From: Scenedesmus sp. ARA3
Taxonomy: Eukaryota; Chlorophyta; Chlorophyceae; Sphaeropleales; Scenedesmaceae
Reading direction: 5' to 3'
Assembly (NCBI GenBank): GCA_004335835.1
Contig: RWJK01001753.1
Span: forward strand, 62,001-126,000
Length of the DNA stretch: 64,000 nt
The translations under genes were made by a program, and so were the position numbers. Positions 5,285 through 59,646 of the stretch are shown piece after piece (position 1 is the first letter of the stretch; the number at the start of each line of letters is the position of its first letter). The notes under the pieces are model-generated. The model worked only from the letters and a program-made list of their open reading frames with translations. It was not told where the DNA came from and made no database searches.

Positions 5285-7846
5285 TCAGCGCTGCATCTCC
5301 CAGGGGCTCTCCAGGCTGAAGAGCCGGAACTCCTGGCTCAGCTCCAGCGGCTCGCTCACCACGCGCTTCTTGCCGTAGTCGTAGCGCACCTGGACGCAGC
5401 AGCAGGGTAAACAGCAACGGCAGCAGCAAAAGAAAGCAGCAGAAAACAGCGTCGCAGCACAGTGGAGGTGGTCAGTGCAAGTGCCCCTGCAATACCGCAC
5501 AACATGGCATGCGCAACCACTGTGTGCGCGTCTTAGTGAGCACGAGGACGCAAGTGACTTTCCTGCAAGCCACCCAGCTCGCTGCCGCACCGCTGTGTAC
5601 CCAGTCAGCACGACCTCCTTGCGCAGGGGGTGGGCCTGGAAGCCGACAGCGTGCTGTGCAGCAGCTCGCTCTAGCCAGACAGCATTGCATGCGCAACCAT
5701 TCTGTGCGAGCCCTGATAAGCACGAGCCCTAGTCACCACGTAGATAACTTTCCTGCAACAAGCTGTACACAACAACCAGCTCGCAGCCGCACCTCTGTGT
5801 AGCCAGTCAGCGGGAAGTCCTTGCGCAGCGGGTGGCCCTGGAAGCCGTAGTCAGTCAGGATGCGGCGCAGGTCAGGGTGGCCGGAGAAGAACACGCCAAA
5901 CATGTCCCACGTCTCGCGCTCAAACCAGTCGGCAGCGGGGTAGATGGTGGTGATGCTGGGCACGGCAGTCACCTCGTCCACACACACCTGCAGCCCAAGG
6001 GTTGTTTTTTTGCAGCAGCAGTAGTGCAGAAGATGCCAGTTGGATGTTGAATGTAAGGTGCATGCCAAGGGTGAAGGGAGTGAGGCACGGGTGCAGCGCT
6101 GCTGTGCCTTGACAGCACAGTCCACAGCACAGTCCACAACAATCGGGCAGCGCAAGCCCAGCACACAACGCCTGCTTGTTCGGTGTGTGTACCACTGCTG
6201 AAGCATCAGCCTTTGCCTGTGCAGCAGTGCAGCTCCACCACCCTATCCATTCTAGCTGACGCCACCCATGCTGCTTCTTGTGTCTCAGCTCGGCTGCTAC
6301 AACAATGACCCTGCAGCGGCCGATATGACTGCAGCAAACAACAAGATATCAAATTCCCACTCCTGCTTCCTCGCTCGCACCTTGATGCGGATCCGGTTGT
6401 TCCAGCGGGGGCTCAGCAGGTGGTACACCACCTCAAAGCGCGCAGCACGCTCCGGGAAGTCGACTGCGGTGATGTCGATGAGGCACTTGAACTGCGTGTT
6501 GATGTGGTCGCGCAGGAACCTGCGGCGATTGTGCGCAAGAGGATGGTTATGCAGGGGGTTCAGCAAGGGGTGGGGGGAGGGGCGGCGCAGGGAGTGCAGA
6601 GGATGAGTTGTGCAGGAAGAGGCACGGAGCTGTGGCGAGGAGTTGCAAACAGGTTATTGCAAAGAAGTGTACAGCAGGTGTCTGACAAAGCACGACAGCT
6701 GTCAAATTGAAGTGTAAGCAGCCGCGGCAAGCAATGCAACGCTCCTGCACAGTCAGGGCACCCTCTGCAGCTGCGCATGACAGCGCTTCCAGTTGAACGC
6801 AGCACAGTACAACTTGCTGGCGCCACTGCGCACCTGATCAGCGGCATCAGGTGCTCCGGTGACGTGTACAGCGTCTGCTCATTGTATACGTTGGTGGACT
6901 GGCCGGGGCCAGCCACCGCAAACTTGATCCAGCTGGGCACCACCTTGATCAGGTAGTCGGACAGCGAGCCCTGCAGCGCCACCACGTCGTTCCTGCAAGC
7001 ATGGATGCAACATACGCGAAACAAACAGAAAGCATATAAGCTGGGGACTTAGTACAGCAGGTTTGCTGCATGTCCAGCATGGCTAGGTGCAGCATAGGGC
7101 ACCTGGCAGCAGCACGCATGGCGATGCGCACTGCTGCTGCTCCACCAGCTGCGGCCGCTGCCGTGCCACAACTGCCTGCAGTGGTGCAGCTGCTGTGCCG
7201 TCAACAACACACACAGCTCGATCTCTGCCTGCAAGCCTGCAATGCCAGCAGCTGCCGGCAGCAGCTTTGCCAGCACAAGCACTGGGTGCACCCCACTGCC
7301 GTACTGTAGCTGGCTTGCGAAAGCGCCCAGCCACACAACTGCATATCGCACCTGTTTGCGTACTGCGCCGTCTGCCTGTCCAGCTTGCGCGCGTAGCGCA
7401 GTGACATCTCACGGCGCTGCTCCAAGCCGGCAGCGGGTGTCTCTGCCAAGCTAGTGCTGCTGCTGGCCTGTGCTGCTGCTGCTGAGACTGCGCCGTTGCT
7501 GCGCTCTCCGGGCCTGCACACACCAGCAGGACAGAACATTGCATGCCATTGCAGAGTTGGCAGACATCACAGACAAGCTGACACAGGTAGTGCAAACTCA
7601 CAGGCGTTCACCACATGTGTGGCATCAGCAAGTGCTGTGCTGCTGCTGACATTGGTGGAAGTGCTACAGAATCCTGATGGCTCCAAGGCCACTAGCTGCG
7701 GGATCTCACCGGTCTGCCAACGTGCCAAACTCCTGGGCAAGACTGCGGAGGTTGCTCTGCAGTGTGTCTGCTACGCAGGAGAGTGCTCCATAGTGCTGGG
7801 CACCTTGCTGCAGCTTGGCCAGCTGCAGCGCTGCCTGCCGGAGCAT
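5285..7846 (-). CDS. NUO9: NADH:ubiquinone oxidoreductase 30-kDa subunit NDUFS3/NUO9 (298 aa)
   Basis: Six exons on the minus strand: 7846-7710, 7513-7352, 6992-6834, 6519-6381, 5987-5793 and 5389-5285. The protein is the nuclear-encoded Fe-S protein 3 of mitochondrial complex I, part of the peripheral arm next to the Q-module. The family signature is complete in exon 5: [20 protein letters not shown] followed by a [12 protein letters not shown] segment, residues about 221-262. The middle domain begins near [20 protein letters not shown]. The first about 100 residues (starting [20 protein letters not shown]) are Arg/Ser/Ala-rich and would include the mitochondrial presequence. The C-terminus, [13 protein letters not shown], ends slightly differently from the usual SPWE tail because the stop lies inside the AGCGCTGCA repeat sequence. 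Intron 5 holds a diverged copy of the exon 5 3' end. Confidence 0.95.
5576..5648 (-). repeat. Exon echo: copy of the NDUFS3 exon 5 3' end in intron 5
   Basis: This segment matches 5779-5850, the end of exon 5 with its donor and the first bases of intron 5, over about 72 bases with scattered substitutions. The intron sequence beside it is duplicated too: 5507-5570 resembles 5686-5758, sharing GCATGCGCAACCA and ACTTTCCTGCAA. The duplication unit is therefore about 150-200 bp in direct orientation. Confidence 0.85.
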
Positions 7847-9095: not shown

Positions 9096-12000
9096 TTACT
9101 TTGAGGGCGGCGCATCTGGCACCTTCACGCTCTCAAGTTGGCTGGTGCTGGTCGCAGCAGACTGCCCCTGTGCCTCTGCCTGTGTGCCGTCAGTCGCCAG
9201 CGACGCTGCCTTGACTGCTGCCTCCTTTGACTTGCGCGCACTGAACTTGGAGCCGCGGCCACTCCTCTGCTGCTGCGGCGCTGCCCCGCTGGCTGCGCTG
9301 CTGCTGGGCAGGGCCTCATCGCGAGCCTTCTTGCGAGAGCCTAGCTCCTTGCCAGACACCTGCAGCAGCACACCACACAGCCCAAATATCAGCGATCAGC
9401 CACAAACGATGATATGTTGCAGAATATGACCCGTGACCATCATGCATGCTTGCGTGTCCCCAGGTATTTGCCAGCCACAGCTCACACCCGAGACCACCTG
9501 TCAGCAGTCACCAGCCAGACATCATCAGCACCTTCCGTCACTGAGGCCAGAAAACATATAGCGGCAGAACTCAAAAGTGTCACCGCGCGCACCTTCTTTT
9601 CCCGGTCCTCCTTGGGCTTAATGACCTCGCCGGTGACATCAATGATAGCGTTGGCGTCACCCGCAGCAGCCAGCGGCGGCATGTCCACCTTGATGGTCTT
9701 CTTCATGTACATCTGCATGGCCGTGCTGATGATGTTGTTCACAAACCAGTACAGCGTGAGGCCGCTGGGCACGTTGAGAGAGAACCACCCTGCAGGCAGC
9801 ACCAGACAGGGCAGCACATGAGGCAGAAAGGGTAAGCCAGCATGCAATGGCAATTAGCGTCAACGGGAGCTTGGCGCAGTTGCCCGCGCATTCACGACAC
9901 CACTACTTTCACGATGCTGCTGGACGCCCTGTTATCTGCCTGCACCCCGACGAGACGGCATCCGTACAGATAGCCGCCTGTGAACGCTCTACATGTGAAC
10001 GCTCTGCATGACACAAACTCCAAGTCTGCACACCATGCTGCAGGCTACTTCCTTTCGTCATCCCGCCGCTCAGCGCAGCCACCGCCGCAGCTGAAACCAA
10101 CGACCATGCCAGCGGACTCAAGGCACACGCCCACAACATGTAATAACAACACAACCGTAACAAGCCGCCAGCCTCACCGATCATGAATGGGATGAAGCCC
10201 AGGATGGCCTGGGTCTGCTGCTGCTGCGGGTCGGTGCTCTGCGGCGACACAATCTTCTGGCTGATGAACTGGCTGGCCACCAGCAGCACCGGCAGCACCA
10301 GGTACGCGCCAGCGTCGTGCCAGCCGATTGGCGGCTGGCCGTCAACGAAGGGGAACAGCCAGGTCAAGCCGGCGCCCTGCAGGAAACAGCAACACAAAAA
10401 CAGCACGTTCAGAGATTGTTCAGCAGGGCGCGCGTTGCTGTTTGTTCATGACTAAGCTGAGTGAGCTGCAACAGGCAAAACCCCAAAGGCAACCACACGC
10501 AGGCCTACGACTGCTGACGGACACAAAACACGCATGCATGTGAATAGCTAATGTACGCACCGCTTTCTGCGCCGCCATGCTGGAGGGCCCGCCCAGGCTG
10601 GGGATCCAGAAGAAGCCGCTGGTCAGCAGGCCCTCATCGGCAGCCTTGGTCAGCGCCCTGCATGGGTTACATGTGAAAGTGTTTAGCACAGCACCAGGCT
10701 CACATATGACTTGTAAGCAATGACTCCATAAGAAGAGGTACGGCTGCAAGTAGGACAGCTCATGCTGCGGATTCCACTGCAGGATGCATGCAGGTGATCA
10801 ACGGCCAAGCCGCACTACTGCTGGAAGAATGCCTATGCAGCAGCCGCCGCAGCAGCAGGCGCACCTGTAGAGCCCGATGAACACGGGGATGGTGGCCAGC
10901 GTGGGCAGGCAGCCCGCCAGCGGGTTGATGCCGGCCGTCTTGTACATGCGCGCAGTCTCCAGCTGCAGCGTCTCGGGGTCGTTGGCGTACTTGGCCTGCA
11001 GCTCCTTCACACGGGGCGCCACAGCCTGCATGGCCAGCGTGGACTCCATCTGCAGCAGCAGTAGGGGCAGCCAGAAGAACGCGGCAGCAGGCAGCTGAGC
11101 GCAGGTGCACAGGGACGAAAAGTTCAATAGCATGTTCAAAGGGCTGTGTGGATGGGACGCTCGCGACAGAAAGCAGCCAGTACCGTTTGCTGTACGGCGG
11201 TCGCACTAATGAGTACTGTTTAACTAATTATTGTCAACGTGTGCACAGCACGCGCTGCGCTGCGCTGCACTGCGAGTGTGCCCCACTGCGCCGCTCACCG
11301 ACTTCTTGCTGAGTGGGTATGTGGCTGCCTTGACCAGCAGTGTGAGCAGGATGATGGCAAAGCCATAGCTGTACGGCACGCCGGCAGCGCTCAGGCCGCC
11401 CTCCAGCACCTGCACCGTGCAGTTCAACAGCCACCGCAACAGCCATGGTCATTGTACGGAGGCTGAAGTTGCTCGTCCAGCACAACATATAAATAAGCCC
11501 CCACAACAGCCACAGTCATAGTACGGAGGCTGAAGTTTGCTCGTCCAGCACATCTATATGTTGAGGCGGCCGCCAGATGATCGTAGTGAGGCGCGCCATG
11601 CAGTGCGTGCCAGGTGGTGCAGACTGGCCTCTTGCATCCCTCTGCTGCAATAGGTGCTGGTCATCTGATGCAGTTGTAGCGCTGTTAGGCGAGTGTGAAC
11701 TGCTTTGTGGTAGCAAAAGCACATCTAGTATCCCCTAGATTGGTGATCAGGTGGCTGGCGATGTCCGCCATGCATGGCCCATCGCATGCAGAGCTATCTC
11801 TGCTGCTGAAAACACATACAAGCTTTGCAAGCTTATCTACACAGACTGCATGATGCTGCTGCCCGGCACCCTGACTACAAGTGCTGTTGCCTGCTGAGGA
11901 TTTGCCGCTGCTGCTGCTGCTGCTGCTGTGCTGCAGGTCGCACCTTGAGGAACGCCTCAAAGCCATCTGCTAGGAAACCGAAAGCTCCGCCGCTTGAGCT

Positions 12001-12694: not shown

Positions 12695-12932
12695 GCTGAT
12701 TGTGGCTAATCAAGCTGGTGATGTGGCACAGGTGGTGGGCGAGCAAGTGCCCAGCAATGCTACAACTGCTAGCCTGCTTGAAAAGAAAGTCTGCTGCAGT
12801 GACGAGCTGTCTTGTCACCGGCGGTTTCAGCAAGGTGTCATGTCAGGCCAACGTGTTAGGTCAGCACTCAAAAGTGCTGATCTCTTCTGTCCCCAAGGCT
12901 TTCCTGCCGGTGTTCAACAGCATCGCAAAAAC
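12695..12932. promoter_or_regulatory. Shared divergent promoter interval, ALB3 / TFIIB-like
   Basis: Only 238 bases separate the proposed start codons of ALB3 (leftward) and the TFIIB-family gene (rightward), so both promoters and both 5' UTRs must fit here. No TATA box is obvious. If ALB3 starts at 12656 the interval grows to 276 bases. Confidence 0.5.
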
Positions 12933-21123: not shown

Positions 21124-21861
21124 CCCTACCGACGCCAGGCTGTGTTTATCCCACAGGATAATCGATTATTTGGTGAATATCTCAAGGATAAACTGAATAT
21201 CCCTCATGGCATGGCGGATATCCGGCAATATGTGTTTATCCTGTAATTGCGCTGGATAATCATCTGGATATCCTGACAGCATGGAGATTATCCACAGCGT
21301 AGTACAGGATCTCATACAGGGCATTGTGCAACGCTGCTGTTGGAGTTGGGTTGGCAGGAACTTCTGAGCAGGGTCCCTGGCAGTAATTGCTGCCATGCCA
21401 AGGCTGGCAGCAGGCCTGCCGCACAGGTTCTGACCGGGTAGTACGTACAAACATATCCAGGACTCTTCTAATTGCTTTGGAAACGTCTTATTGCCCAGAT
21501 TCTTAAACACCTATGAGCAATTGTCTTTCCCACCTATCATTGGCAAGCATTGCGGAGCTTTTAAGTGCAGCAGTGGTGTGTGAGTGGTGCCTGTATCATT
21601 CCTTTTCCAAGCAGAGCACAAAAGACGCCATGTCTCATATACTCGCAGTAAGCGAGCAGTGCACATAGGATCACGGGAATACGCTTGGGGGGCACTTGCT
21701 TGTCACTGTGTTACAGCACAAAATGCCACCGACAGCTATTCGCAGCTTCATCTCACAGCATGCTCTGAAACCGAAGATAGTACATACAATGTTTAATGCG
21801 TTCAGCTTACCGATATCATAGCCTGGCTAGATGCGTGCAATATGGACACGCGAGCGCAGCA
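21124..21861 (+). mobile_element. Dispersed repeat, copy 1 (core in orientation A)
   Basis: The segment is homologous to 61597-62368. It begins CCCTACCGACGCCAGGCTGT. Collinear blocks are 21124-21227 with 61597-61701, and 21401-21861 with 61897-62368. The block between, 21252-21399, matches the reverse complement of 61717-61860. Identity is high but imperfect. GGATAATC, GGATATCC and GATTATCC words recur in the left half. There is no transposase, reverse transcriptase or terminal repeat visible, so a non-autonomous element is likely; the class is unknown. The copy runs directly into an assembly gap on its right. Confidence 0.85.
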
Positions 21862-21911
21862 NNNNNNNNNNNNNNNNNNNNNNNNNNNNNNNNNNNNNNN
21901 NNNNNNNNNNN
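21862..21911. other. Assembly gap (50 N)
   Basis: A gap of placeholder size. It separates dispersed-repeat copy 1 from the ankyrin gene and may hide the missing 5' exons of the latter. Confidence 1.
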
Positions 21912-22185: not shown

Positions 22186-23495
22186 GACGTGTGTGCCGGG
22201 GACGGCGAGTCACGCACACCGCTGCACTATGCCGCCGGCTACAACCACGCAGAGATCGCGATCATGCTGCTGGAGGCGGGAGCCAAGCTGGAGGCCAGGG
22301 ACTCCAAGGTGGGCATAAAGAGTAGCAGTGCTGCAGGCTTTCTCTTATGTGTGATATCCAGTCGCTGGTAACATGCGACCGCATGCTGCCAGTGGTACTG
22401 TGGTCACGGACGCAGCACACTGACCGGCTCCCAGCCACACAGTTGCAAGCATGCCGCATACATTGTATGCATGCCTGCTGCACGGTCATGTGCATTTGAA
22501 CTCGTTGTTGCCGGCCGCTGCCGCTGCTGTGCGGCATGCGCAGGGCAACACGCCGCTGCACTACGCAGCCGGCTACGGGCGGCCGCAGCTGGTGGAGCGT
22601 TTAGCTTCTGGCTGCAGCCGGCCAATCTGTCGCTGCTCTGCTGTTTCATTGCAGGGCAACACGCCGCTGCACTACGCAGCCGCATACGGGCGGCCAGCTG
22701 GTGATGCCGTTGAAAAATCCAAATGGCTGATCAGTATGATGTGGATGCTGCTACCGCTGCAATTCATATCTGCAGGGCAACACGCCGCTGCACTACGCTG
22801 CCGGCTATGGGCGGCCGCAGCTGGTGGAGCTGCTGCTGGCCCGTGGCGCTGATGCAGCGGCAACCAACGAGTCTGGCAAGACCGCCTACGAACTCGCCAC
22901 GTGAGAGTGCAGAAGGACATATCTGTAGATACATTAGATGTGTTGCGCATGGCGCTGATGCGGCAGCGACCAACGCGTCCGGCAAGACTGCATGTGAGCT
23001 GGCCACGTGAGCTGGCTTCCAGCATGTGGTGCAGCGCTGGAACCGTTGGCAGCGCGTGGGTGTCGGCACGATGTGGCCGCGCCACAGCATTGATTTTGCC
23101 GAGGGTTGCATGCCCAGCTTTGCCGGTTCAGCTCTTGCTATGCGGGCTGTCTAGTGTTTCAAGCAGGCGGAGGAACGCAGCACACGGCACACACCACTTA
23201 AGCGTGTCATAATCGTTTCATCGGAGTAGGATACAGCCTTTCAGCGCCAGAGCCAACTTCAGCCCCGCTTACATGTTGTAAAACAAAAACTCTCCAATCA
23301 CACCAGTCGCTCCCAGCTGACGACTGCACGGTACCGCCTGGTAGGCCTACCCTAGGGAATGTGCGGATGCTGTCAGCATATGTAATGGCACAGCCAGTGA
23401 TGCGTGGGAGGCCGTGCCAGTCGCATGCACATTGCATGTTAATGTGCTTGGGTCTTAAAAGGTAGTAAGGGTGCCACCCTTACTTGTGTGTTACA

Positions 23496-23527
<32 letters not shown>

Positions 23528-25366: not shown

Positions 25367-26592
25367 TGTCAGCGTGATGGTTCCAGCAAAGGAAAGTGTC
25401 TTGCACATTGAACGTACTAGCAAGACACCGCTTGCCCGTGCACATGATTGCAACACGATCAGCAGCACGGCTGGAATTGCATGGTATTAAACTCCTATAC
25501 CAGCGCAGCGCCGCACCTGTGCCGTGGTTGGAGCAGGTGCGCGTCAAGGCAACTCCATCACAGCTGCAAAGTGCTCACACAACACGACACACGCATACGT
25601 ACACTACGTACAAGCACACCACACCACCACCGCCGCACCTGTGCCGTGGTTGGAGCAGGTGCGCGTCTTGCGCTGCGCATCGAAGGCCGCAAGGCCCGCG
25701 GCAGCGCCAGTGAAGCCCGCATTGAAGTCCATAGCCACCTCGCTGCGCTGGTAGTCGTTGCGGATGTCGGGGAACTTGTCGGACTGGTCTGGGCCGCCAA
25801 CAAGGCCACCCAGCACCTGCACAGTATACAGACAGAAGGTTATGTGAGCAGCAGAAGAAGAATGGAGGACTGCTGGTGCACGGGTATGCAAGTTTATCGA
25901 TTATGAGGCTCCCTGTACAATACGCAACTGCTGGCTGACGCACCTTGATCTTGGCGGGCGCGTCGCTCATGAAGCTGTCCAGGTTGCAGCAGTTGGCGCC
26001 AGTCTCGCCGGCGCAGCAGGTGCCGTTCTCCACCTTGCGGCAGGGCTCCTGGTAGTCGACGTTGCAGGCGGACTGGCGGTGGTGGGGGCGCTTGGGCTGG
26101 TCAGGACCGTAGCCGATCAGGTACGACTTGCCTGCAGCGCAGCAGCAGCCGCAGGGATAGTAAGCAACAGTCAGGTACAGCAAAGGAGCCAAGGGTGAGG
26201 CTTGCCTTGCAGTGTGTGCGGCTCTGGTATTTGTGTAGCTATCAGACTGGCAGCCACGGAGAGGCAGCTTGGAAGCACCGTTTATTGTCTTGAAGCCGCT
26301 GCTCCATCCGATCAAAGCCAGGCTCTCAGAACGGCAAGCTGCAGGGAGGACATTGCATCATGCGTGTGATGTAGCGCATGTGACTGCGTGCCCATGCGTT
26401 CTTTGCTGTCGGCAGACACTACAGTGCACAGTAACATAACCAACATTCCGCAGGTCACTCACCGGTGCTGGTGCCTGTGATGTAGCGCATCTGGCTGCGC
26501 GCCCAGCAGATGTGCGCCTCTGCGTTGTCTCCGTACTTGCCCATGATGGTGGCCAGGAACATCATGTTGCCCGTGTTGCGCAGCGTGCCCCT

Positions 26593-26672
<80 letters not shown>

Positions 26673-26735
26673 TCAACAGTCAGTTATGATGGTGGCCAGG
26701 AACATCATGTTGCCCGTTTTGCGCAGCGTGCCCCT

Positions 26736-26767: not shown

Positions 26768-29700
26768 CGCAAGTGCACAATTCAGCGAGGGCGTCCTACA
26801 GCATGGTGTTGCGGCGGTTGATTGATTGCACACCGGCAACCAGCAGCAAATGCTGCTTGTGTACATCAAGTGGTAGGCAGTGCGTCACACGCAGCCAGCT
26901 GGCTTGGAGCACACAGCCACACACCGACAATGTAACAATAAGTATAAACAACAATAACATAACAATGTAACAACCCATGTAACGCGCCACTCACCAGTCG
27001 CTGTAGTAGGCCAAGCCCTTTGGTGCGAAGCACGCGTTTGCGTAGCTCTCCTTGGGGCACTTGCTGCTGGTGTCCTCCACTCAGCCAACACATAACCCTC
27101 CAGGTACAGCTTGGCCACAGCAGCAATGCAAACACACAAATAACAAGTGTAACACCAAGTAACAGTAACATAACAATGTAACACTCCACTCACCAGTCGC
27201 TGTAGTAGGCCAGGCCCTTGGGTGTGTAGCACACGTTTGAGTAGCTCTCCTTGGGGCACTTGCTGCTGGTGTCCTCCCACTTGGCCAGCACATAGCCCTC
27301 CAGGTACAGCTTGGCCACAGCAGCAACAGGCTCCAAGTCGATTGACACCACCAGGGCAGCCACTCCGGGCATGACTGCATCATAATCGTAGCTGTTTTAG
27401 GTGTTTGCAAGCACAGAAAAGGAAGCAGAGGCAGAGAAGGCAAGCAGATGTCAGTGTTGCAAGTGTCAAGCGCACCACAAGCAGTACAGGGTTGGGGTTG
27501 GCAAGTGCTGGGTGAGTCCGGCAGCCCTCCAGGTACAGCTTGGCCACAGCAGCAACAGGCTCCAGGTCAATTGACACCACCAGGGCAGCCACTCCTGGCA
27601 TGACTGCATCGTAGTCGTAGCTGTTGATGTGAGGCAGGCGGCAGCGGCAGAGGGCAAGCAATTGTGAGTGACAAGCTGGGGCAGGTGGTGCAGGAACAGC
27701 TTGGCTGCAGCTTGGCCACAGCATGGCAACAGCAGCAACAGGCTCCAGGTCAATTGACACCACCAGGGCTGCCACTCCTGGCATGACTGCATCGTAGTCG
27801 TAGCTGTGTTTGGTTTGCAGGTGGGTTTTTGCAGGGCAGAGACACAAAGGCGAAGAGGAAGAGGCAGGCAAGCAGATGTTAGTGTCAAGTTGGCTGCAAG
27901 CAGTTTCCCTAAACACAGCAAACAACAACCTCTACAGGCTGCCATTCGCTCAGTCCTGCGCAGCGACACACCTTGCAATATGAAGGACACTGACAAACGC
28001 CATCAGTACTCACCCCAGGCCATACTTCATGTTGTCGATGGAAACGGCCCCGTTGAACTGAGACACAGCCTCATCGCAGAACTCACCATCATACTTGCAC
28101 AGCCAGCCTTGCGAGCTCAGCATACAACAGCCGCACAGCAGCATCACTCACCCCAAGCTCTACTTCAGGTTGTTGACAGAGTTCACATCCTCACATCGCG
28201 CAGCACAACACAGCCACCTCATTCACTACCTGATCAGCGCAGCCGCAGCAGCACTCACCCCAGGCCATACTTCATGTTGTTGATGGAAATCGCGCCGTTG
28301 AACTGCGCCACCGCCTCATCGCAGAACTCGCCGTCATACTTGCACAGCCAGCCGGCAGCCCAGGCCATCTGCGCGGTGTAGCCATCGGGCCAGAAGGAGC
28401 TGTAGGCCTGGAACACGCCGTTGGGGGTCTTCCAGCTGCAAAGTGACAGCAGCAGCAGCAGCAGCAGCAGCAGAGAAGACGGCAGGTTTGCGAAACCGAA
28501 GTCTGTATGTTGTTGGCTGTCGTGGTTGCCGACAGCATGATCATACTATGGCCGGAGACAGCAGGTGTGCTGCCACGGCCCACAAACGCACTTCATGTTG
28601 TGCACGGCCCGTAAGCTTGACCAAACACTGCCACTAATAGCGCAGCTTGTTCAGGCTCAGGCTCAAGTTAGTCAGCTCAAGCCGGCAAAACCCGTTGCCA
28701 GCACTCACTTCAGGGGGTAGGCCTTAGCAAAGTCATACGCCTGCTGCGCATGCTTGAACAGCTTGGCGGCATACGCATCCTGGCCCAGCCCGCGGAACAG
28801 CGCCGCACTGGCAGCAAAGGCAGCAGCATACTCGGACGCCAGGTCAGCGCCGGGCCTGTCCTTGTCAGCGATGTAGGTGGTGCGGCTGTTGGTGGCGTGC
28901 TCGGGGCGGCCGAAGTACCAGTGGTCGGGGCGGGCAGAGATCTGCAGTGTTGCAATGCAGTAGGAGGGCAGGTGTATGTGAGGTGATGTGGCATGTACAG
29001 GCGTGCTCGGGGCGGCCAAAGTACCAGTGGTCGGGGCGGGCGGAGATCTGCAATGCAGCAGGAGGTCAAGAGTTTGTAAGGTGTTGGTGGCATGTTCTGG
29101 GCGGTCAAAGTGCCAGTGGTCGGGGCGGGCAGAGATCTGCAGTGTTGCAATGCATTGGCAGGGCAGGTGTTTATCAGGTAGGTGTGGGCAGTAGTGGGGG
29201 CGGGCAGAGATCTGTAGTGAGGAGGGCACAGGTGTGGCAGCAGGAGGGCAGGTGTGAGATGGATAGGCGAGGCTGCGCAGCGGACTATGCTGTCGATCTG
29301 ATGCTGTACATGGTGCTGCTGGTTGGGGCGTTCAAAGGCAAGAGATGAGCCGGCAGGCATGCTGCAGCTGCTGCTTCTGCAGCTCAAGCAAATCAGCCTG
29401 AGTCTGCTAGGCTACGCTGCACGATGCACGTGACACCACAGACAGACCGCTGCTTGTTGCTGCAAGCCGCACCTGTCCCACGAATGCATTGTCCTCTGGT
29501 GCATCACCCGACTTGATGTGTGCCTTCATCAGCCAGTCAGCACCCCACTTGACAATGCGCACGGCAACATCCCTGCAGACAGAAGGCAGGCACGCAGCAG
29601 TTATAACAGGCAGCAAGCAGCGGAGAAGCTGTTCATCAGCTAGCAGCATGCCAGTTTCCCTTTTAATACAAAGCAGCAGCTGCCACTGGTGCATTGGCAC

Positions 29701-30734
29701 AGGGTTTGCACGGTATGACAAACCAGAAGACAAGGCGTTTCAACTCATGTAGCCTGAGCATTGCATGCTTTGCTGCATGTCTCACAGTCTTACGCAATGC
29801 AGTTTAGACCCCACCAGTTGCCGCTGGAGGTGTATGCCCCCCTGAACTCCATGGCAGATCATTTGCCGCAGATTCAGACAAACCCTGTTGACCATTCTGG
29901 ATCCAAACCTAACCCACCAGTTGCTGGAGGTGTAGGCCTCCCCGAACTCCTTGGCACTAGCACAGGGTTTTTTGCTGTTGCACACTAGGGTTCCAAACAT
30001 GTTGAAAGAAAGAGCTGCAACAGTTGTTATGTGCATGTCTCACCAGTTGCCGCTGGAGGTGTAGGCCTCCCTGAACTCCATCATGGAGAAGGCCAGGTTG
30101 GCCATGGTCCACGCTAGCGCGTGGGGGCACTTGAGGTAGTCTGAGGCAGCGGCAGCAGCAGCAGCAGCGGTGGTAGCTGTCAGCGGGAACATTGTAAAAG
30201 CGGCATGGAAAGATCAGCACAAGTGCACAGTAGTGACAGCACGTTCCGGCCTGCAGGCTGCAAGTGTTGTACCACAGCGTGCCAGTGCAGTGTTCCCCAA
30301 CCACATGCAGGCACCTATGTCCTGCTGCACAGGCAGAAGCTGCAGCCATTTCAAAACTAAAAACTGATCATTCAACCAATGTAAAGTCAAGCTGCTCACC
30401 GCCTGCGTCGTAGAAGCCTCCTGCCAGGTCCACGCCGATATCCTTGCCGTCAGTCAGGTGGGCACTCTTCTTGTAGCCGCCAGGCTTGCCGTGCAGCATG
30501 CGGTTCCAGCTGCAATCAGGCAGATTGGCAGAGTGGCAGAGGTGGCAGAGAATGTGAGAGAAAACAGGTTGCATGTGCAGTCTTCTTGTAGCTGCGAGGC
30601 TTGCCGTGCAGCATGCGGTTCCAGCTGCAGTGAGGCAGGCAATTGAGGGGCTAAAACAGAGCAGGCAGGAGTGCAGGCATGGTGTAACAGTGCAGCTGAC
30701 AGCAGTCTCAGCACAAGCCATCCTGCAGCTGCTC

Positions 30735-32443: not shown

Positions 32444-34947
<2,504 letters not shown>

Positions 34948-39380: not shown

Positions 39381-42010
39381 ATGATGCAAGCAGCATCTGC
39401 AGTGCTGCTGTTGTTGTTGGCAGCCAGCAGCACAGTAAGCAGAGCAGCACAGACGCAATGTATAGTGGAGCACTCGCTTGATGGAGGCAGCAGCTACCAA
39501 CGAATTGGGCTGCTGCAACTAGATGACGACACAAAGGTGAGAGCTGTGCAACATTTGTGTGTTTTGGAATGCAGAGCATTGTAATGGTTGGCGCCCTTTG
39601 TCAGCTGCAGCTAGCGTCGCTGCAGCATCATCATAGCAGCATCAGCAACAGCAAGCAGCCCATGCTATGGCGCATCAGGTGAAGCAAGCATAAAGCTATG
39701 CCATGTTCACAGCTGTTCACAGCTACCGACACACTGTGCTGCTGCAGATAATAAATGCCGGCAGCAGAGATCAACAGCTGCTGCAGCAGTGACTGAGCTC
39801 ACCCGCCCTCCATGCCCCACAGCACCCTACGGCTACCATACTTGCATGCTTTCCTGCATCAATCACAGCAGAACCAAGCTTACTTCGCCCTTGCTTTTCC
39901 GTGTTTCTAGGGTGGCCAATCCGCTGTGACAGGCTCTTACCAGCGGCAGCCAACTACAGCGCAGCAGCTGGACCAGCTGAAGCAGCTCGTGGAGCAGGAT
40001 AGGTGCGAGACTCGGCACACTTAACTGTGCTTCAATAACTGCAGGCATCTGCAGTTTGCGCCCTGCCGCTGTCATACCATAGTGGCCTAACGCTGTCTAT
40101 CACTTGATTTGCATTCCAGCAGATTTTTGCCTGCAACGCACACTGCCAATACAACTGTTGACGCAGCACCCCTCATTCCGCATCGCTTGCCACACCCACT
40201 AGGCGTAGTACCTGCTCCTCACATAAGCCATATATCTGTTATTCTCTGATGCCACGGGGACGCAACATAACTGCATATATCCATCGTCAATCCTGCAGGC
40301 TGTACCTGTGGCGCCTCAAGCCCCAGGGCCAGCCCACCATCCTCACTTCTATCAAAGCAGCATGCTTCGCGCAGCACCTGCAGCAGCACACGCCCGTGCT
40401 GCACCTGGACGCCGCAGGCCACGTCATCAGCAGCCAGCTGGCAGTTCCTGCAAGCCACGATGGCTCCTGCAGCCCTGCAAAGGCGCTTGCTGAGCTGGCA
40501 GTGCTGAAGCATGATGCCCAGGCAATGGCAGAGCCAGTGGAGATGCAGGTGATCTTGATACAATACAATACTATATGGTATATAGTTTTGTTTTGTATTG
40601 TAATGTGTTGTATTATGCCGTATAGTATATTGTAATGTATTGCAATGGCAGAGCCCGGGGAGATGCAGTTGATCTGAGGTTTGAGCAGCATGGTGGCGGG
40701 GGCGCTTTCCAACATTATTGAATGCACATATGTTGCAAGTTGCAATCACAAAGCGTGCTGTCTGCAACTCTGTGTACTGCAGGTGGTGGTGAAGGCGCCT
40801 GTGCTTGCGCCGCGCGTGCCTGCAGGGCCAGAGGGCGTCCCAGTGGAGCTGGCTACAGCAGCTGCAGGTGCGGCCCTTGCAGGATGATCAAAACAATAAC
40901 GGGAATGATTTGCAGCTGCTGTGTTGGGAGCTAGCGGCTGTCCGGTGTGGTTGTTGTGTGTGCACATGCTGGCTCATTGGGTGCTGTAGGTCACACGCGT
41001 CTGTGCCCCACTCCCAGGCTTGCCAAGTGGTCCAGGGTAATGCACTCCACATGATGCACCTATTCTGCCATTTGTGCCTGCAGGAGGTGCACCCAAGCCA
41101 GCCGGCCAGCAGCAGCAGCAGCAGCAGGGTGGCCAGGCTGGTGCTGGCGGGCAGCAGCAGCAGCAGCAGGAGGGTGCTGAGGGCGAGGCTGCTGCCCCGC
41201 CTGTCGACAACCGCACCTGGTGGCAGAAGAACTGGCTCTTTGTGATGGCTGGCGGCACATTCGTGAGTGGCGGTGCTGTGTTTTAAATCAACAGGCCTCA
41301 GGGGTGTTGGCTGGCAGAGCAGGGGGCTGCTGATTGTGATAGCGTGCACTTACAAAGGCTGCTGTGACCAGCTGGCGCAGGCATGTGAATGCTGTGATCA
41401 TGTGAGGCAAACCGGCTCAGCTACATTGTGTTACGGCGGAACACGCCAGTGCTGTGAGCTTGCTGGTGGCAGAAGAACTGGCTGTTTGTGATGGCTGGAG
41501 GCACCTTTGTGAGTGCGTGCTGCTGCTGTTACATACTGTGTGCTATTGTAGCAGCTATGAAAACAGCTATGAAACATAGCCCTGAGGGATCATTGCAGCA
41601 GAGCAGAGGGCTGCTGCCTGTCACAGCAGGCACCACACAACAACTGCCAACAACGATGCGAATGTTGGAGGCTGTGGTTCAGTACCAGCCGCTGGCACAG
41701 CAGCGATAGTTGAGGCAAACCATGCGAGTGCCTTGAGCACGCTGGATGCTGCTGTGCTTGCTGTCCATGTGCGTGTTGCATGGTCCTACTTGGCACCTCT
41801 CCACGTGGACATTCACGTGTGGACATTGCAGCAGTCAGGCACCTGCATTGTTCCTTTTTCTTATGTTTTCCTGCTTCGTGTGCCTGTGCCGCTGTCCTGC
41901 AGGTGTTGAACATGGCCCTGAAAAACGCCATCCCAGACCCGCCCCCTGCAGCAGGAGCTGCCAGGCCTGCTGGTGCAAGGCCTGCCGGCGCTGCAGCACG
42001 CAGGCAGTAG
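39381..42010 (+). CDS. EMC10: ER membrane protein complex subunit 10 (EMC10), 289 aa
   Basis: Six exons: 39381-39536, 39911-40002, 40299-40548, 40783-40867, 41084-41262 and 41903-42010. EMC10 is a lumenal/transmembrane subunit of the ER complex that inserts tail-anchored and multipass proteins. Residues 1-23 are a signal peptide (MMQAASAVLLLLLAASSTVS). The lumenal domain shows VEHSLDGGSSYQRIG, YLWRLKPQGQPTILTSIKAA, LHLDAAGHVISSQLAV and VVVKAPVLAPRVPAGPEGVP, the beta-sandwich pattern of EMC10. A Gln/Gly-rich linker precedes the single membrane segment near residues 240-262 (NWLFVMAGGTF, VLNMALKNAIPD). The tail PPPAAGAARPAGARPAGAAA is unusually long and Pro/Ala-rich compared with animal EMC10. 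The introns hold two exon echoes and one AT-rich island. TGTAA at 42377-42381 is a possible poly(A) signal. Confidence 0.85.
40555..40641. repeat. AT-rich island in EMC10 intron 3
   Basis: A run rich in TATA, TTGTATTG and ATACAATA words, far lower in GC than the flanks. It lies between exon 3 and its echo at 40642-40676. Confidence 0.8.
40642..40676 (+). repeat. Exon echo of the EMC10 exon 3 3' end, donor destroyed
   Basis: It matches 40522-40556 (GCAATGGCAGAGCC and GGAGATGCAG), but the donor GT after CAG has become TT, so it cannot act as a 5' splice site. Confidence 0.85.
41462..41516 (+). repeat. Exon echo of the EMC10 exon 5 3' end
   Basis: It matches 41217-41271 and reads WQKNWLFVMAGGTF with its GTGAGTG donor intact. 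Downstream intron sequence is copied too (41287-41345 against 41580-41625), so the unit is about 245 bp. Confidence 0.92.
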
Positions 42011-43514: not shown

Positions 43515-43555
<41 letters not shown>

Positions 43556-45117
43556 GCCGCGCCGCCGCCAGGCGCTCATCGCTGGCACAGACCTGGTGCT
43601 TCATACTGCGGGGCCCTTCCAGCACTCCAAGAACTTCAACGTGATTGAGGCAGCGCTGGAGACGAAGACGCCCTACATAGACGTCTGTGATGACACACAT
43701 TACTCACAGGGGTGCGGCCTGTGCTGCTGCTGATGCTGCCAAGTGGAGTTTCCCTGCATGCCGGCCTGCTAAAAGTGTAACTCCGACTCAGGTTTTTGAA
43801 CCTTTGCAGCTCCTGCAGAACTCAGCTTGCGCTCACAAGCTATTGCCGCATGCAGCGCGCTGTTAATTCACCTCCTTCTCTTCAAGCCTGCTGTCTGCTA
43901 CTTACTGCTTTCGCGGTCTGTCTGCTGCAGCATCAAGGGCTGCCACGCCCGGGCTGTTGCGGCAGGCATCCCTGCCCTCACCACTGTCTGTTTGAACTGC
44001 TGGAACTGATTTGCGCGGCTTTGCATTTGTGCTGCTGCAGCATCAAGGGCTACACGACCAGGCTGTTGCCGCAGGCATCCCTGCCCTCACCAGTATTGGA
44101 TTGACCTGCTTGAACTGCTCCGTACTGCTTTGAATCTGCGCCTGCTGCAGCATCAAGGGCTACCACGACCAGGCTGTTGCGGCAGGCATCCCTGCCCTCA
44201 CCACTGCCGGCATCTACCCCGGCACCAGCAATGTGATGGCAGCACACATCGTGTCCATCAGCAGAGGGGAGTACGACGAGAACTGGAACTACAAGCAGCC
44301 GGCAGCAGGTGCGGGTGATCAGATGGCAGTGGCTAAAGGGCACTCTGTGCAGTTGTGTTGTGTTGGGCGGGTGTGTTGGGTGGCTGGCGGTTGGTTGCCG
44401 CGTGGTGCTGCAGCTCACATCTGCTTTGTTCCTTCAGTAGAGACTGTCAGTAGAGGCCGTCAGCGGGGGGNNNNNNNNNNNNNNNNNNNNNNNNNNNNNN
44501 NNNNNNNNNGGCGTGCGACGTTAACTGGAACCACAAGCAGCCGGCAGCAGGTGCGTGTGATGGCCGTGTGATGGCCGTTAGGCGCTTCTGTGGCCTGTTG
44601 GGCTTTTGACGATGGGGGCGTATTGTGTTGTGGAGGAAGGGGTGCTTTTGTGCAGACAACAAGCAGCGGCAGCAGGCGCGTGTCATGATCAGGTGGCAGC
44701 GCACAGGGGGCGTATCGTGTATGTGGAGAAAAAGGGTCTTTCGTGCATACCTGGTTGCAGTACGACCACACCAAACCTGGTGTCGGCAGCTTGCAACCAG
44801 GTGTGCACAAACCACCTAGGTGCATGCTTTAAGGCTGTGGAGGGATGGCGTGGTGGAAAGGGTTGGTTGGGAAAAGGGTTGGCTGGTTGGGAAAGGGTTG
44901 GTTCGGTTGGGGTTGGTTGGCTGGCCGGTGGCGTGCTGCTGCAGCTTGCATCTGTCTGGAGTAGTTCAGTTCAGCCGGCCACATGCGAGCGTTCATGCAG
45001 TTCTTGTGGTTGCTGCTCCTGCTGCTTCAGTGCTGCCTTGACTGCCGCTGGTGCTGCTGGCGCTGCTAGCATGCGTCACTAGTGTCGCAGCATATATCAA
45101 CATACACCACCCCATGT

Positions 45118-45166
<49 letters not shown>

Positions 45167-46203
45167 TGAGGGCATTGAGCCCACCATGCTGCGCTACAGC
45201 TACTACACCGCTGGCAGCGGCGGCGCAGGGCCCACCATCCTGGAGACGTCCTTCCTGCTGGCTGGAGAGCAGTGCACGGTGTACAAGGAGGGCCAGGCGT
45301 ACCAGCTGCCACCCATTAGTAACAGGCGGGAGGTGGACTTTGGGCCAGGTGGGGACAGCAGAATGGGTCCGAGTTTAGGTTTCTGGAGTTTGCAAGCCAC
45401 AATAGGAGGGAGGGTAAGACTCGGGGCTAGTTCAAGAAAGCAGGTTGGGGGTTGCCTTATTGGGCGCAGGTATTTGGTGCTTGCGCGTCCCACCATCCTG
45501 GAGATATCCTTCCTGCTTGCTGGCGAGCAGTGCACAGTCTATAAAGAGGGCCAGGCGTACCAGCTGCCACCGATTAGTAACAGGCGGGAGGTGGACTTTG
45601 GGCCAGGTGGGGACACATCAGGCTGTATGCTTGTGTAGTGCACAGTACTTTGCCAGGGTGTGTTTGTCAGCAATCATGCACCCTACAAGTTCATCACACA
45701 CTGCCACGTTTTGCGGCGTTGCAGGCATCGGGCGCAAGGGCGTGTACCTGTACAACCTGCCCGAGGTCATGTCTGCGTTCAAGTACATCAAGGTGCCTGG
45801 CGTGAGTGCGCGCTTCGGCACCGACCCCTTCATCTGGAACTGGGCGATGTGGCTGGTGGCGCGGCTGTGCCCACCACAGTTCCTGCAAGACAGGAGCCAG
45901 GTGGGCTATGAGAGTGTTGAAAGGTTTAGGGTTTTGGGTGTTAGGGCACCGATCCCTTCATCTGGAACTGGGCGATGTGGCTGGTGGCAAGGCTGTGTCC
46001 GCCGCAGTTCCTGCAGGACAGGAGCCAGGTGGGTGCGTTGGTGGGCTGGTGGGCTGGTGGGGTGGCGGGCTGGTCAGCTGTGGTTCATTTGGCTGCGGCA
46101 ATTCAGGGGGCTGCAGTTTGAGCTAAACGTAATGTCAGCACATTGGGCGGCAATGGCACCTTTGAAGATAGTGTGTTGTGGGGCTGAGCGCTGATGTGCG
46201 TTG

Positions 46204-46234
<31 letters not shown>

Positions 46235-47438
46235 AGGTGCGCTGGCTGGCGCGCCTGAGTGACCCCTGGGTGCGCATCGTGGACAAGATCATCGGCGAGG
46301 CAGTGGTGAGTCAGCAGCGACACGTCAGCAACAGCACAAGCAGCAAGCAGCTAAATAGTTAGCTTCATCTGTAGCAGCGTAGCAGCTGTTGTGGTGAGCG
46401 ACCCCTGGGTGCGCATCGTGGACAAGATCATCGGCGAGGCAGTGGTGAGTGGGGACAGGCAAAACTTGGGACGCATGTGCCCTGCTGTACTTGGTACGTG
46501 TAGCAGTATGCCCTCACATCTGCGTGGCATGGTTGACTTTTGGTACGCATTGTGAACAAGATAATCAGTGACGCAGCAGTGACGCGCCATAAGCAGCAAC
46601 CATATCTCCGTTGAACAGCAGCAAGCCGCCACTACTTCTGGCTGCTGCTTCTGTGGCTGCTGTAGCAGCTGCAGCAGTGACACATCCAGTTGCTGTTCCC
46701 GCGGCTGCAGCAGCAGCACCGGTATGCGCGTGGAGGTTGACTTTGACGGCGGCAACAACTTATTCTTTTCAATCTCAGATTTAAGGAAGCATTTATCAGT
46801 TTCCCGCGCCTGCAGGGTAAGGGCGTGGAGGTGGGCTGTGAAAGAGGCAAGACCGAATCTGCTTTGATTTAAAAGTTCAGCAAGAAACTTCCATGTTCTG
46901 GTTTACCGGATAATCGTGTTTGCAGGGCATGCGCGTGGAGGTGGATTTTGAGGGCGGCAAGAATGCCAGCGGCATCTACGTGCACAAGAAGCTGCCTGAG
47001 GCCATGGGCAACAGCGTGGCAGCCTTTGCACACGCCGTGCTGAGCGGGCAGAGCCAGCCGGGCGTGTGGTACCCTGAGGAGAAGGAGGCACTGGCGGTGA
47101 GCTGTTGTTTTGAAATGGTTTTGAATTGGTTTTGAAGTGAAGAATGTACCACAGCAGCGAGCATTTGGCGTTACACATGTCATGCTGTTTTGATGTGATG
47201 GCTGCGGTGCAGGTGGCAGAGCCAGCTGGGCGTGTGGCAGCCTGAGGAAAAGGATGCGCTGCTGTTGTCGCATCAGGTGGCCAGTGGATGTGGATGGGCA
47301 GAGCTAGCTTAGCGTGGTCCATACCCATTGTTCCACCTGGCGTGCTGCTGCTGCTGCGTGCAATTCGCCGCGCGTCCCTGCAGTACGTTGCCAAGCGCTG
47401 CAGCTGCTCACTGTCCATACCCACTGCTCTGCCTGGCG

Positions 47439-47480
<42 letters not shown>

Positions 47481-47603
47481 GCGCAGGACCGCCGCGCGTT
47501 CCTGCAGTACGCGGCCAAGGGCTGCACCCGCTTCGACCTCAACCGGCCTGCCTGGGCACTGGAGAGCGATGTGAAGCAGCTGGGTGGCCTCATCTACTGG
47601 TGA
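42467..47603 (+). CDS. Saccharopine-dehydrogenase-like NAD(P)-binding oxidoreductase, plastid-targeted (433 aa)
   Basis: Nine exons: 42467-42698, 42846-42901, 43572-43711, 44151-44308, 45166-45348, 45725-45900, 46237-46305, 46926-47096 and 47487-47603. It belongs to the plant/algal saccharopine-dehydrogenase-like family of plastid proteins; the substrate is unknown and lysine catabolism should not be assumed. Residues 1-25 are a transit-like peptide. The Rossmann motif GGTGRVG is at 36-42, followed by the sheet/loop ITVASRSQESF. Family landmarks: DLVLHTAGPFQHSKNFNVIE, TPYIDVCDDTHYSQ, GIPALTTAGIYPGTSNVMAA, DPFIWNWAMWLVARLCPP and GKNASGIYVHKKLPEAMGNS. The protein ends DVKQLGGLIYW. Introns are packed with exon echoes, one intron contains an assembly gap, and four introns end in (CTG)n tracts at the acceptor. 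Confidence 0.9.
43931..44093 (+). repeat. Two exon echoes of the 5' end of exon 4 (saccharopine-DH-like)
   Basis: 43931-43987 and 44041-44093 repeat the start of exon 44151 behind identical CTGCAG acceptors and the CATCAAGGGC beginning. The first keeps the frame (HARAVAAGIPALTT). The second has a one-base deletion in the TACCACGAC segment. Three equivalent acceptors thus occur in 220 bases. Confidence 0.92.
44471..44509. other. Assembly gap (39 N) inside an exon-echo array
   Basis: The gap interrupts a copy of the 3' end of exon 4: CAGCGGGG just before it and the GTTAACTGGAA part just after it both correspond to exon sequence. The duplicated array probably caused the gap. Confidence 0.95.
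44518..44686 (+). repeat. Two exon echoes of the 3' end of exon 4 (saccharopine-DH-like)
   Basis: 44518-44560 matches 44275-44317 (NWNHKQPAAG with a GTGCGTG donor). 44657-44686 is a shorter copy (ACAAGCAGCGGCAGCAGG) in which the donor GT has become GC. Confidence 0.85.
44860..44920 (+). other. G-run array, candidate G-quadruplex
   Basis: Runs of three or four G occur at 44860-44862, 44869-44871, 44876-44878, 44889-44891, 44895-44897 and 44909-44912 with short loops of mostly TTGGTT and AAA. It lies in intron 4 of the saccharopine-DH-like gene, on the transcribed-sense strand, so both DNA and pre-mRNA could form it. Confidence 0.6.
45119..45163 (+). repeat. (CTG)15 tract adjoining the exon 5 acceptor
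   Basis: Fifteen CTG-frame units run directly into the GCCAG acceptor of exon 45166. Similar tracts end at the acceptors of exons 43572, 46237 and 47487 of the same gene. Confidence 0.95.
45489..45613 (+). repeat. Long exon echo of exon 5 (saccharopine-DH-like)
   Basis: About 125 bases match 45231-45355 closely. The copy stays open in the exon frame (PTILEISFLLAGEQCTVYKE onward) and keeps the GTGGGGAC donor. It begins in mid-exon and has no acceptor in the right phase, so it is not a usable cassette exon. Confidence 0.95.
45945..46036 (+). repeat. Exon echo of the 3' end of exon 6
   Basis: It matches 45817-45906, covering DPFIWNWAMWLVARLCPPQF LQDRSQ and the GTGGG donor. The copied frame starts after a shift, because one base is missing near its start. 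Confidence 0.92.
46394..46585 (+). repeat. Two exon echoes of exon 7
   Basis: 46394-46450 repeats SDPWVRIVDKIIGEAV with its GTGAGT donor and no base change in the coding part after GTGAGCGACCCC. 46540-46585 is an older copy (GTACGCATTGTGAACAAGAT). Confidence 0.9.
46721..46856 (+). repeat. Two exon echoes of the 5' end of exon 8
   Basis: 46721-46758 and 46811-46856 repeat the start of exon 46926 (MRVEVDFEGGK) with clear divergence; the second retains a CTGCAGGG acceptor. Confidence 0.82.
47213..47262 (+). repeat. Exon echo of the 3' end of exon 8
   Basis: It matches 47047-47096 (GGCAGAGCCAGC, GGCGTGTGG, CCTGAGGA) with three small indels and no donor GT at the expected place. Confidence 0.82.
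47357..47402 (+). repeat. Exon echo of the 5' end of exon 9, with its CTG tract
   Basis: It matches 47481-47525. The preceding intron is copied too: CATACCCA(T/C)TG(T/C)TC and CTGGCGTGCTGCTGCTG precede both the echo and the real exon, so the duplicated unit is about 120 bp including a CTG tract. The echo tract is short; the tract at the real exon has expanded. Confidence 0.9.
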
Positions 47604-58500: not shown

Positions 58501-59646
58501 CTGCGGCAGCCGCCCTCCACCAACGCAGCACTTGCCGAACAACAACAGAACGCAGCACTTGCCGAACAACAAAGGAAAACTCTCCCTTTACAACACATCC
58601 GCCAGCCCGCTGCTCTTCGCTGGCACCTTTTAGGCAACATCAGTCACCTGCATGCGTGCGAAACTGCGCCTGTTTTGTTGAACGCCTTGCGGCACTGCCG
58701 CCAACATGCTCCGTGTCCCTGCCCGAGGACTTTCATGGTGTTGAGGAGCAGAAACAGGGTGAGCTTGAGCAGCAGTTGTTGCTTGTGTAAATCCTGGACG
58801 CACAACAAAAATGAAGTATGCTTGTTACGGCTGCATGCAGGCAGAAGCGCTCAAGAGCCAGGTGGATGCGTCCGACTTTGTACCCATCCCTGGAGTGCCC
58901 ACCTACTGCATCTACGGCGGCGCACAGCCCACTCCCACGCAGCTCACCTACAAAGCTGCCTTTGCAGCCGACAAAATCAACGAGCTTCCCGTCACTGCTG
59001 GTTTTGTGGACGGGGACTCTGTGGTGCCCCTCAGCAGCCTGAGCCTGTGTGATAAGTGAGTGGCTGCTGTTCTTTCCTGCAAGGCTCTGCGTCTTTCCTG
59101 CAGGGCTCTGCTTGTTTTCCTGCAAGCCTCTGCAGGCTCTGTGGTGCCCCTGACCAGCCTGAGCCTGTGTGACGAGTGAGGGCTGCTGTCGTATAATCTG
59201 CAACTGCTGCTCCAGTTATTATATGTGCTGCGTCTGCACTTCAGAGCGCCAGAGACATGGCTTATCCGCACACGTGCGCAATTCAATACGACTGAGATGC
59301 CTTGTGCTGGGGCAGCATCAGATGCAGACAACAGCGGGTGCAACACTTCTGTCATTCTGACCGCTCACACGGCGGGGTTCTTGCTGCCATACGCTTGACT
59401 GATACCACACTGGCATGACTCGGCAGCGGCTCGCTTATTGAGTAGCATTCTGGCTGCCGCGTATCACCCTGCTGCTCTGCTCACACACCTCGCGTTGTCC
59501 GCGCTGCTTGTACCTTCTGCAGGCTGACCGACAAAGACAACGTGTACAAACTGATGGGCAAGATCAACCATTTCACCGTCTTAAACGAAACTGCTGGCCT
59601 GGCGGCTATCGCCAAAGCCTTTGAAAAGATCCTTGAGAAGAAGTAG
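55568..59646 (+). CDS. Secreted LCAT-type alpha/beta hydrolase (phospholipase/acyltransferase family), 422 aa
   Basis: Eight exons: 55568-55649, 56061-56274, 56702-56847, 57100-57262, 57527-57770, 58112-58192, 58841-59055 and 59523-59646. Residues 1-20 are a signal peptide (MSYLVILAVLLASASQALAQ), followed by PPIIILPGLLDSQL, the typical LCAT start. YDWRLDINSM, around residue 148, is the family's conserved YDWR motif. The nucleophile elbow is GYSQG with Ser187, in SVILVGYSQGNLVARALL. The likely acid is Asp367 or Asp369 in GFVDGDSVVPL and the base His398 in KINHFTVL, so the triad is complete. Related enzymes move or release acyl groups of phospholipids and sterols; the substrate is unknown. The second intron appears to use a GC donor. 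The C-terminus is EKILEKK, with no membrane anchor. Confidence 0.88.
56275..56276 (+). other. Apparent GC-AG intron donor
   Basis: To keep RKIFTSNIGVTV in frame, exon 2 must end GCCAG before GCAAGTACG. The bases after the GC fit a strong donor (GCAAGT), the known GC-AG variant. A GT four bases further on would shift the frame. Confidence 0.65.
58255..58350. repeat. Imperfect inverted repeat of CTGCCTGC / GCAGGCAG words in an LCAT-gene intron
   Basis: Left part GCTCTGCCTGCCTGCG and GCTGCTGCCTGCCT face AGGCAGGCAGGCGTGCAGGC and GGCAGCACGCG across a short AT-rich spacer near 58300-58312. It could form a long imperfect hairpin. Confidence 0.7.
59131..59180 (+). repeat. Exon echo of the LCAT-type exon 7 3' end
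   Basis: It matches 59017-59062, reading GSVVPLTSLSLCD with a GTGAGGG donor. The surrounding intron also carries three imperfect tandem copies of a TTTCCTGCA(A/G)G(G/C)CTCTGC word (59076-59134). Confidence 0.88.

Follow-up and report, generated by a model that had tools for sequence, protein, structure and literature searches.

Copies of exon ends in the introns of seven genes

We analyzed 64,000 nucleotides of the genome of Scenedesmus sp. ARA3 (contig RWJK01001753.1, positions 62,001 to 126,000; the window), in which partial copies of exon ends lie together with splice sites inside the adjacent introns. These copies are termed echoes and the exons that they resemble are termed parents. Genes of the NDUFS3, ankyrin, GH9, RPS18, EMC10, saccharopine dehydrogenase (saccharopine-DH)-like and LCAT types had been named as carriers of echoes in an earlier annotation made without database searches (the sequence-only reading). 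The exons of GH9 and of the saccharopine-DH-like gene were fixed by homologous proteins; the other gene names in the window are those of the sequence-only reading. The spliced query of the saccharopine-DH-like gene matched the 433-amino-acid Tetradesmus obliquus protein OEZ86_013684, listed on a 5.2-Mb contig, at 100% (rounded) over the query, and on this match the window was assigned to T. obliquus.

Self-comparison of the window (E ≤ 1e-2, any distance) recovered the local direct copies, with 51 pairs of which 45 were direct and 6 inverted. Masking of simple repeats left 32 non-redundant direct pairs with a lag of 40–600 bp. Of these, 28 overlapped a predicted exon, and all 28 were located in the seven genes, each of which was found to carry local direct copies of exon ends with splice sites, as proposed. 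ALB3, which had been listed as free of echoes, carries a tandem pair with a lag of 67 (11429–11552) only 11 bp from one of its predicted exons.

For the two genes with homology-fixed exons, 12/12 pairs in GH9 and 9/10 in the saccharopine-DH-like gene were located on or at most 15 bp from an exon end, where uniform placement predicts 37 and 31%, respectively. One of the nine exon-end pairs of the saccharopine-DH-like gene sits at the stop codon and not at an intron. Ordinary ankyrin repeats could account for some pairs in the ankyrin gene (e.g., 22001/22180), and the copies at 44510 and 63322 adjoin N gaps, so that scaffolding could affect both.

Echoes are concentrated at exon borders

The analysis was extended to a genome sample consisting of the window and 25 further stretches, with 272,867 non-N bases in total. 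Exons were mapped by a codon-model exon finder, for which 21 homology-fixed exons served as the first training set and its own predictions as the second. Before pairs were counted at exons, simple repeats were masked, and redundant pairs and one sample locus (L012) were excluded. L012 spans 10 kb, contains 58 direct repeat pairs and represents a separate repeat array.

The pairs were overwhelmingly direct. Within 1 kb we found 231 direct and 4 inverted repeat pairs (38 of the 231 from L012), and 294 direct and 20 inverted pairs at any distance. This supports the proposal of local tandem duplication across exon-intron borders, and the habit is widespread in the sample. The direction claimed for the window, with copies of 5' ends upstream and copies of 3' ends downstream of the parent, was found in 57 of the 59 scorable pairs (35 copies of 3' ends downstream, 22 copies of 5' ends upstream and 2 copies of 5' ends downstream), while direction could not be scored in the other 15 of 74 border pairs.

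Out of 104 non-redundant pairs, 74 were located on a predicted exon border and 79 overlapped a predicted exon. Random placement within these loci gave 23.9 ± 4.1 (at most 38 in 500 rounds) and 32.0 ± 4.5, respectively. When only gene spans were considered, 55 of 68 were border pairs, with 34.3 ± 3.4 expected. Per possible start position at lags of 95–150, there were 43 pairs at exon borders (1.075/kb), 2 in intron interiors (0.057/kb), 5 in intergenic or unpredicted sequence (0.031/kb) and 1 inside exons (0.045/kb). The border rate was approximately 19 times that of intron interiors and 35 times that of intergenic sequence, and the concentration is therefore not merely the result of random duplication that chances to cross borders. 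The distribution was patchy; 20 of 37 clusters of at least three predicted exons had a border pair and 14 had two or more. Exons bearing pairs had a smaller median length than those without (135.5 and 167 bp, respectively; p = 0.003).

A preferred duplication unit of about 115 bp

Spacing was scored with exact 14-mers, which removes any bias from alignment length. Copy spacing had a sharp mode at 110–130 bp (46 14-mer clusters) and a second peak at 220–250 bp. There were 77 clusters at 100–150 bp and a trough of 19 at 50–100 bp, whereas shuffled sequence had none in either range; overall, 322 clusters were found, compared to 7 in shuffled sequence. There is thus a preferred duplication unit of about 115 bp, which the sequence-only reading had not foreseen. 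A separate short-lag group of direct repeats, with 46 clusters at 10–50 bp, lies apart from the 110–130 bp peak.

The anatomy of the unit was deduced from 39 of 62 splice sites, the remaining 23 being either beyond the lags considered or the second site of a pair. For these 39 pairs (lag 96–151) the exon part had a median of 46 bp (interquartile range 37–54.5), implying an intron part of 71 bp. The exon part was not uniformly distributed along the unit (Kolmogorov–Smirnov p = 5e-6; p = 0.016 when 30 bp of intron was required), but was compatible with a uniform distribution given at least 40–50 bp of intron (p = 0.21 and 0.50).

Contiguous units do occur; in sample locus L013 four copies of one exon edge follow each other between 892 and 1291, mostly at a spacing of about 118 bp. 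Classified by the rest of the unit, the 74 border pairs comprised 21 contiguous tandem copies, 22 with a similar remainder and 31 without similarity. Sequence of the intron past the splice site, often copied according to the sequence-only reading, was shared in only part of the cases.

Most echoes diverge as unconstrained copies would

Codon changes were counted in frame for 76 of 79 exon pairs (three with fewer than eight codons were dropped), corresponding to 1478 codons. Of the changed codons 166 were synonymous and 204 non-synonymous, and a further 40 codons had indels. Mismatches per codon position were 108:105:214, close to 1:1:2. The synonymous share of 0.449 was indistinguishable (p = 0.16) from the 0.422 predicted for a neutral echo beside a parent changing only synonymously. 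Overall, the echoes behave as unconstrained dead copies beside a constrained parent, unlike pieces of alleles or exons in use. Lags divisible by three were not in excess (8, 15, and 16 lags with remainder 0, 1, and 2), and a frame-free test of codon periodicity gave a weak signal only (0.523 vs. 0.499, p = 0.0065). The exon part had diverged by 0.099 mismatches per site and the intron part by 0.162. The splice dinucleotides were kept in 26/29 echo donors and 26/29 acceptors, counts restricted to echoes whose alignment reached the splice site, which favors retention. An early impression of general coding constraint on the echoes, gained from a few pairs in the saccharopine-DH-like and GH9 genes, was rejected by the frame-aware count.

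A minority of pairs differed purely or almost purely at synonymous sites. These are 45231–45615 (7 synonymous, 1 non-synonymous), 45817–46033 (7:0), and 41217–41530 (4:0) in the window, and the copies at 4568 and 4705 of L013 (5:0). An allelic origin or conversion possibly accounts for the synonymous-only pairs.

One echo is part of a deposited gene model

The first 37 residues of the T. obliquus protein OEZ86_013679 were 97% identical (36/37) to the GH9 echo at 28123–28013 and only 78% identical to the parent exon. The opening of the protein includes MLSSQ, encoded by the echo's own intron flank, while the remaining protein follows the parent exons. As the protein carries both the echo and its private flank, a second assembly contains echo 28013–28123 as well. 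For this echo misassembly, a possibility raised in the sequence-only reading, is thus unlikely, although the two assemblies may share reads. Judged from these matches, the deposited gene model appears to begin inside the echo, which is a warning for annotators. The T. obliquus annotation may hold more gene models that start in echoes. A search for a second one was uninformative, with no protein named as T. obliquus among the best 120 of 618 matches.

Echoes and intron length

It had been suggested that echoes could make introns grow. In GH9 all seven echo-bearing introns were longer than all four others, in agreement with this. The saccharopine-DH-like gene gave no clear link, one of its echo-free introns being 667 bp long, and among 165 predicted introns the number of echoes was not significantly related to intron length (Spearman 0.08, p = 0.30). 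The other suggested roles of echoes, as a supply of decoy splice sites or new exons, gained no support.

Origin of the echoes

The echoes probably stem from local direct (tandem) duplications, which recur at or near exons in units of approximately 100–140 bp and are filtered by splicing. The usual unit would span a splice site, with an exon share of about 45 bp and an intron share of about 70 bp. Such duplications could arise at or near exons by slippage during replication or break repair, and those internal to exons would be purged as protein-breaking. A copy would survive when approximately 40–50 bp of intron separated it from the real splice site, since splicing could still select that site. 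The copy joined to the exon body would then remain in use, and the other, now within the intron, would decay without constraint.

Several observations weigh against this explanation. The intron part was without similarity in the 31 border pairs mentioned above. Nine border pairs had an aligned part with at least 95% identity, and 6 of them were among these 31. Plain contiguous duplication followed by even decay fails to predict such dissimilar remainders. Rapid turnover of intron sequence may account for unrecognizable remainders, but pairs of 95–98% identity beside unrelated sequence stay awkward. The synonymous share also varied among pairs beyond sampling (χ2 = 96.8, 49 degrees of freedom, p = 6e-5), some pairs being all synonymous (7:0, 5:0, 4:0) and others all non-synonymous (0:8, 0:5). 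Except in GH9 and the saccharopine-DH-like gene, the exons were mapped by a self-trained predictor, which labelled some echoes as exons. Finally, neither the focus on exons nor the size rule is explained by any mechanism that has been shown.

Bias of mutation itself toward exons or splice junctions is a live possibility, since survivorship alone does not easily yield a 19-fold difference when intron interiors are free to keep copies. In its strong form this would be a mutational process aimed at splice junctions (or transcribed exons) that lays direct copies of about 115 bp centered on the splice site, for instance through co-transcriptional splicing, R-loops or RNA-guided repair. We consider this doubtful; if true, it would give the lineage a steady supply of intron sequence with ready-made splice sites.

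It is unlikely that survivorship alone made the pattern, with duplications arising evenly, exonic ones being purged and exon-touching ones staying recognizable longest, so that borders merely look favored. The smaller divergence of the exon part agrees with this, as does the scarcity of pairs wholly inside exons (1/104, with 2.6 expected at random; 3/104 under another rule). However, correction of the border excess for lost non-exonic copies at 58% survival (43/74) leaves an 11- and 20-fold excess, and a harsher survival of 28% (21/74, contiguous pairs only) still leaves about 5- and 10-fold.

Gene conversion between exon and echo would preserve similarity in the exon part as the intron part diverges, and would fit the aligned parts of 95–98% identity that lie beside unrelated remainders. 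As simple conversion leaves the synonymous share unraised, pairs of the 7:0 type are not explained. The intron to exon divergence ratio of about 1.6 over the aligned bases is moreover near the 1.5 reckoned for neutrality, and we regard conversion as improbable.

An assembly artefact, in which pieces of the other haplotype or fragments of read length were laid in tandem, seems very improbable. Two copies begin at N gaps, and a few pairs differ at synonymous sites only. The T. obliquus UTEX 393 draft was built from 101-bp reads with gap filling (PMC5255914), an assembly of about double the size exists for another strain (PMC5552973), and diploidy is likely in a related Scenedesmus (PMC7955037). 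In contrast, allelic pieces should differ mostly synonymously, which the 204 non-synonymous among 370 changed codons and the 40 indel codons do not. The saccharopine-DH-like gene, when searched against this assembly (87.27 Mb in 1567 contigs), matched itself and otherwise only short stretches of at most 57 bases. One echo and its private flank are contained in a protein annotated on a 5.2-Mb contig, although the two assemblies may share reads. The reading of the echoes as a mixture of haplotypes was judged unlikely from the frame-aware codon count and the separately annotated GH9 echo.

That selection keeps the echoes as alternative ends of exons or as decoy splice sites with a regulatory role is very improbable despite their retained splice dinucleotides and several purely synonymous copies, as the codon-position pattern is near neutral overall, lags show no excess of multiples of three and OEZ86_013684 corresponds to the parent exons.

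Relation to known systems

Tandem duplication within genes is known, as is intron gain by tandem duplication, exemplified by a potato RdRp gene (PMC4974935). The echoes share with it the local duplication of exon sequence with splice signals, the duplicate becoming intronic. There, however, a new intron is made, whereas echoes are extra, apparently unused exon ends in existing introns at many places. In intron gain of the AGGT type the duplicated segment forms a new intron where there had been exon; the echoes of the saccharopine-DH-like and GH9 genes instead occupy parts of larger introns, and the parent exons are the ones that agree with the annotated or homologous proteins.

In tandem exon duplication with mutually exclusive splicing, exon sequence is likewise repeated in the neighboring intron. 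Echoes differ in being partial, often out of frame and decaying; frame and coding constraint, which mutually exclusive or alternative exons keep, were not preserved by the echoes overall, with a minority of pairs being coding-like. Introner elements are intron-linked repeats in many genes, but they are copies of a shared element, whereas echoes copy the edge of their own neighboring exon. When two stretches of the window were searched against the genome, one matched itself alone and the other itself and short, mostly simple-repeat matches. Gao and Lynch reportedly described, in 2009, internal gene duplications in eukaryotes, including segments with entire introns (cited in PMC4974935). Such duplications also lie within genes, while echoes differ as partial exons that stay in introns.

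Among the open-licence papers listed by literature searches, none described, in its title or abstract opening, copying of exon edges throughout a genome or a border-focused form with a unit of about 115 bp, which is weak evidence of absence. Tandem duplication is a known kind of mutation, and the echoes are best read as an unusually focused variety of it that operates genome-wide. Should the focus on borders and the unit of 115 bp apply to the whole genome, the echoes would provide a natural experiment in which many second, initially equal splice sites lie beside the real ones. This would allow direct tests of how splice sites are chosen, how exons are defined and where intron sequence originates.

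Echoes and other repeats in the window

The echoes identified in the window are given in Table 1.

Table 1. Positions of echoes in the window. Lags are in bp.
Gene	Feature	Position	Strand	Parent and remarks
NDUFS3-type	Exon 3'-end echo with donor	5499–5645	-	Parent copy 5679–5847, lag 180; 2 synonymous, 6 non-synonymous codon changes
Ankyrin	Array of exon 5'-end copies (~22540, 22650, 22772)	22510–22826	+	From self-comparison
Ankyrin	Exon 3'-end and donor copies 22844–22905, 22950–23011	22844–23011	+	Lag 106
GH9	Exon 3'-end echo with donor	25506–25545	-	Parent 25628–25667, lag 122; 97.5% identical, unrelated flanks
GH9	Exon 5'-end echo with acceptor	26686–26735	-	Parent 26543–26592, lag 143
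GH9	Exon 3'-end echo with donor, frameshifted	26934–27126	-	Parent 27139–27326, lag 205
GH9	Two exon 5'-end echoes with acceptor	27523–27890	-	Parent exon 27193–27390
GH9	Exon 3'-end echo with donor	28001–28123	-	Parent 28246–28353, lag 245; codes for residues 1–37 of OEZ86_013679
GH9	Array of exon 5'-end echoes with acceptor	29000–29219	-	Parent exon 28714–28944
GH9	Two exon 3'-end echoes	29810–29956	-	Parent exon 30043–30147, lags 126 and 229
GH9	Exon 5'-end echo with acceptor	30574–30638	-	Parent 30459–30523, lag 115
RPS18-type	Exon 5'-end echo copies with acceptor	33530–33703	-	Parent exon 33269–33452, lag 119
EMC10-type	Exon 3'-end echo with donor	41463–41530	+	Parent 41217–41282, lag 246; 4/4 codon changes synonymous
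Saccharopine-DH-like	Two acceptor and exon 5'-end echoes	43922–44092	+	Parent exon 44150–44310; second with 1-bp deletion
Saccharopine-DH-like	Two decayed exon 3'-end echoes with donor	44510–44687	+	First begins at N-gap edge
Saccharopine-DH-like	Exon 3'-end echo with donor	45489–45615	+	Parent 45231–45357, lag 258; 7 synonymous, 1 non-synonymous
Saccharopine-DH-like	Exon 3'-end echo with donor	45945–46033	+	Parent 45817–45905, lag 128; 7/7 synonymous
Saccharopine-DH-like	Exon 3'-end echo with donor	46395–46450	+	Parent 46256–46311, lag 139; 98.2%
Saccharopine-DH-like	Exon 5'-end echo	46721–46758	+	Parent 46926–46963, lag 205
Saccharopine-DH-like	Exon 3'-end echo	47215–47261	+	Parent 47047–47093, lag 168
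Saccharopine-DH-like	Exon 5'-end echo	47366–47408	+	Parent 47490–47532, lag 124
LCAT-type	Exon 3'-end echo with donor	59137–59189	+	Parent 59017–59070, lag 120

Two further repeats were observed in the window. A 63-bp repeat, 97% identical, is located at 62519–62581 and 63322–63384; the second copy begins right after an N gap and may be an unmerged contig end. A dispersed repeat of approximately 740 bp is located at 21124–21861, where it ends at the N gap 21862–21911, and at 61597–62367. Its copies are 84–95% identical in pieces, and an inner segment of approximately 159 bp is inverted between them.

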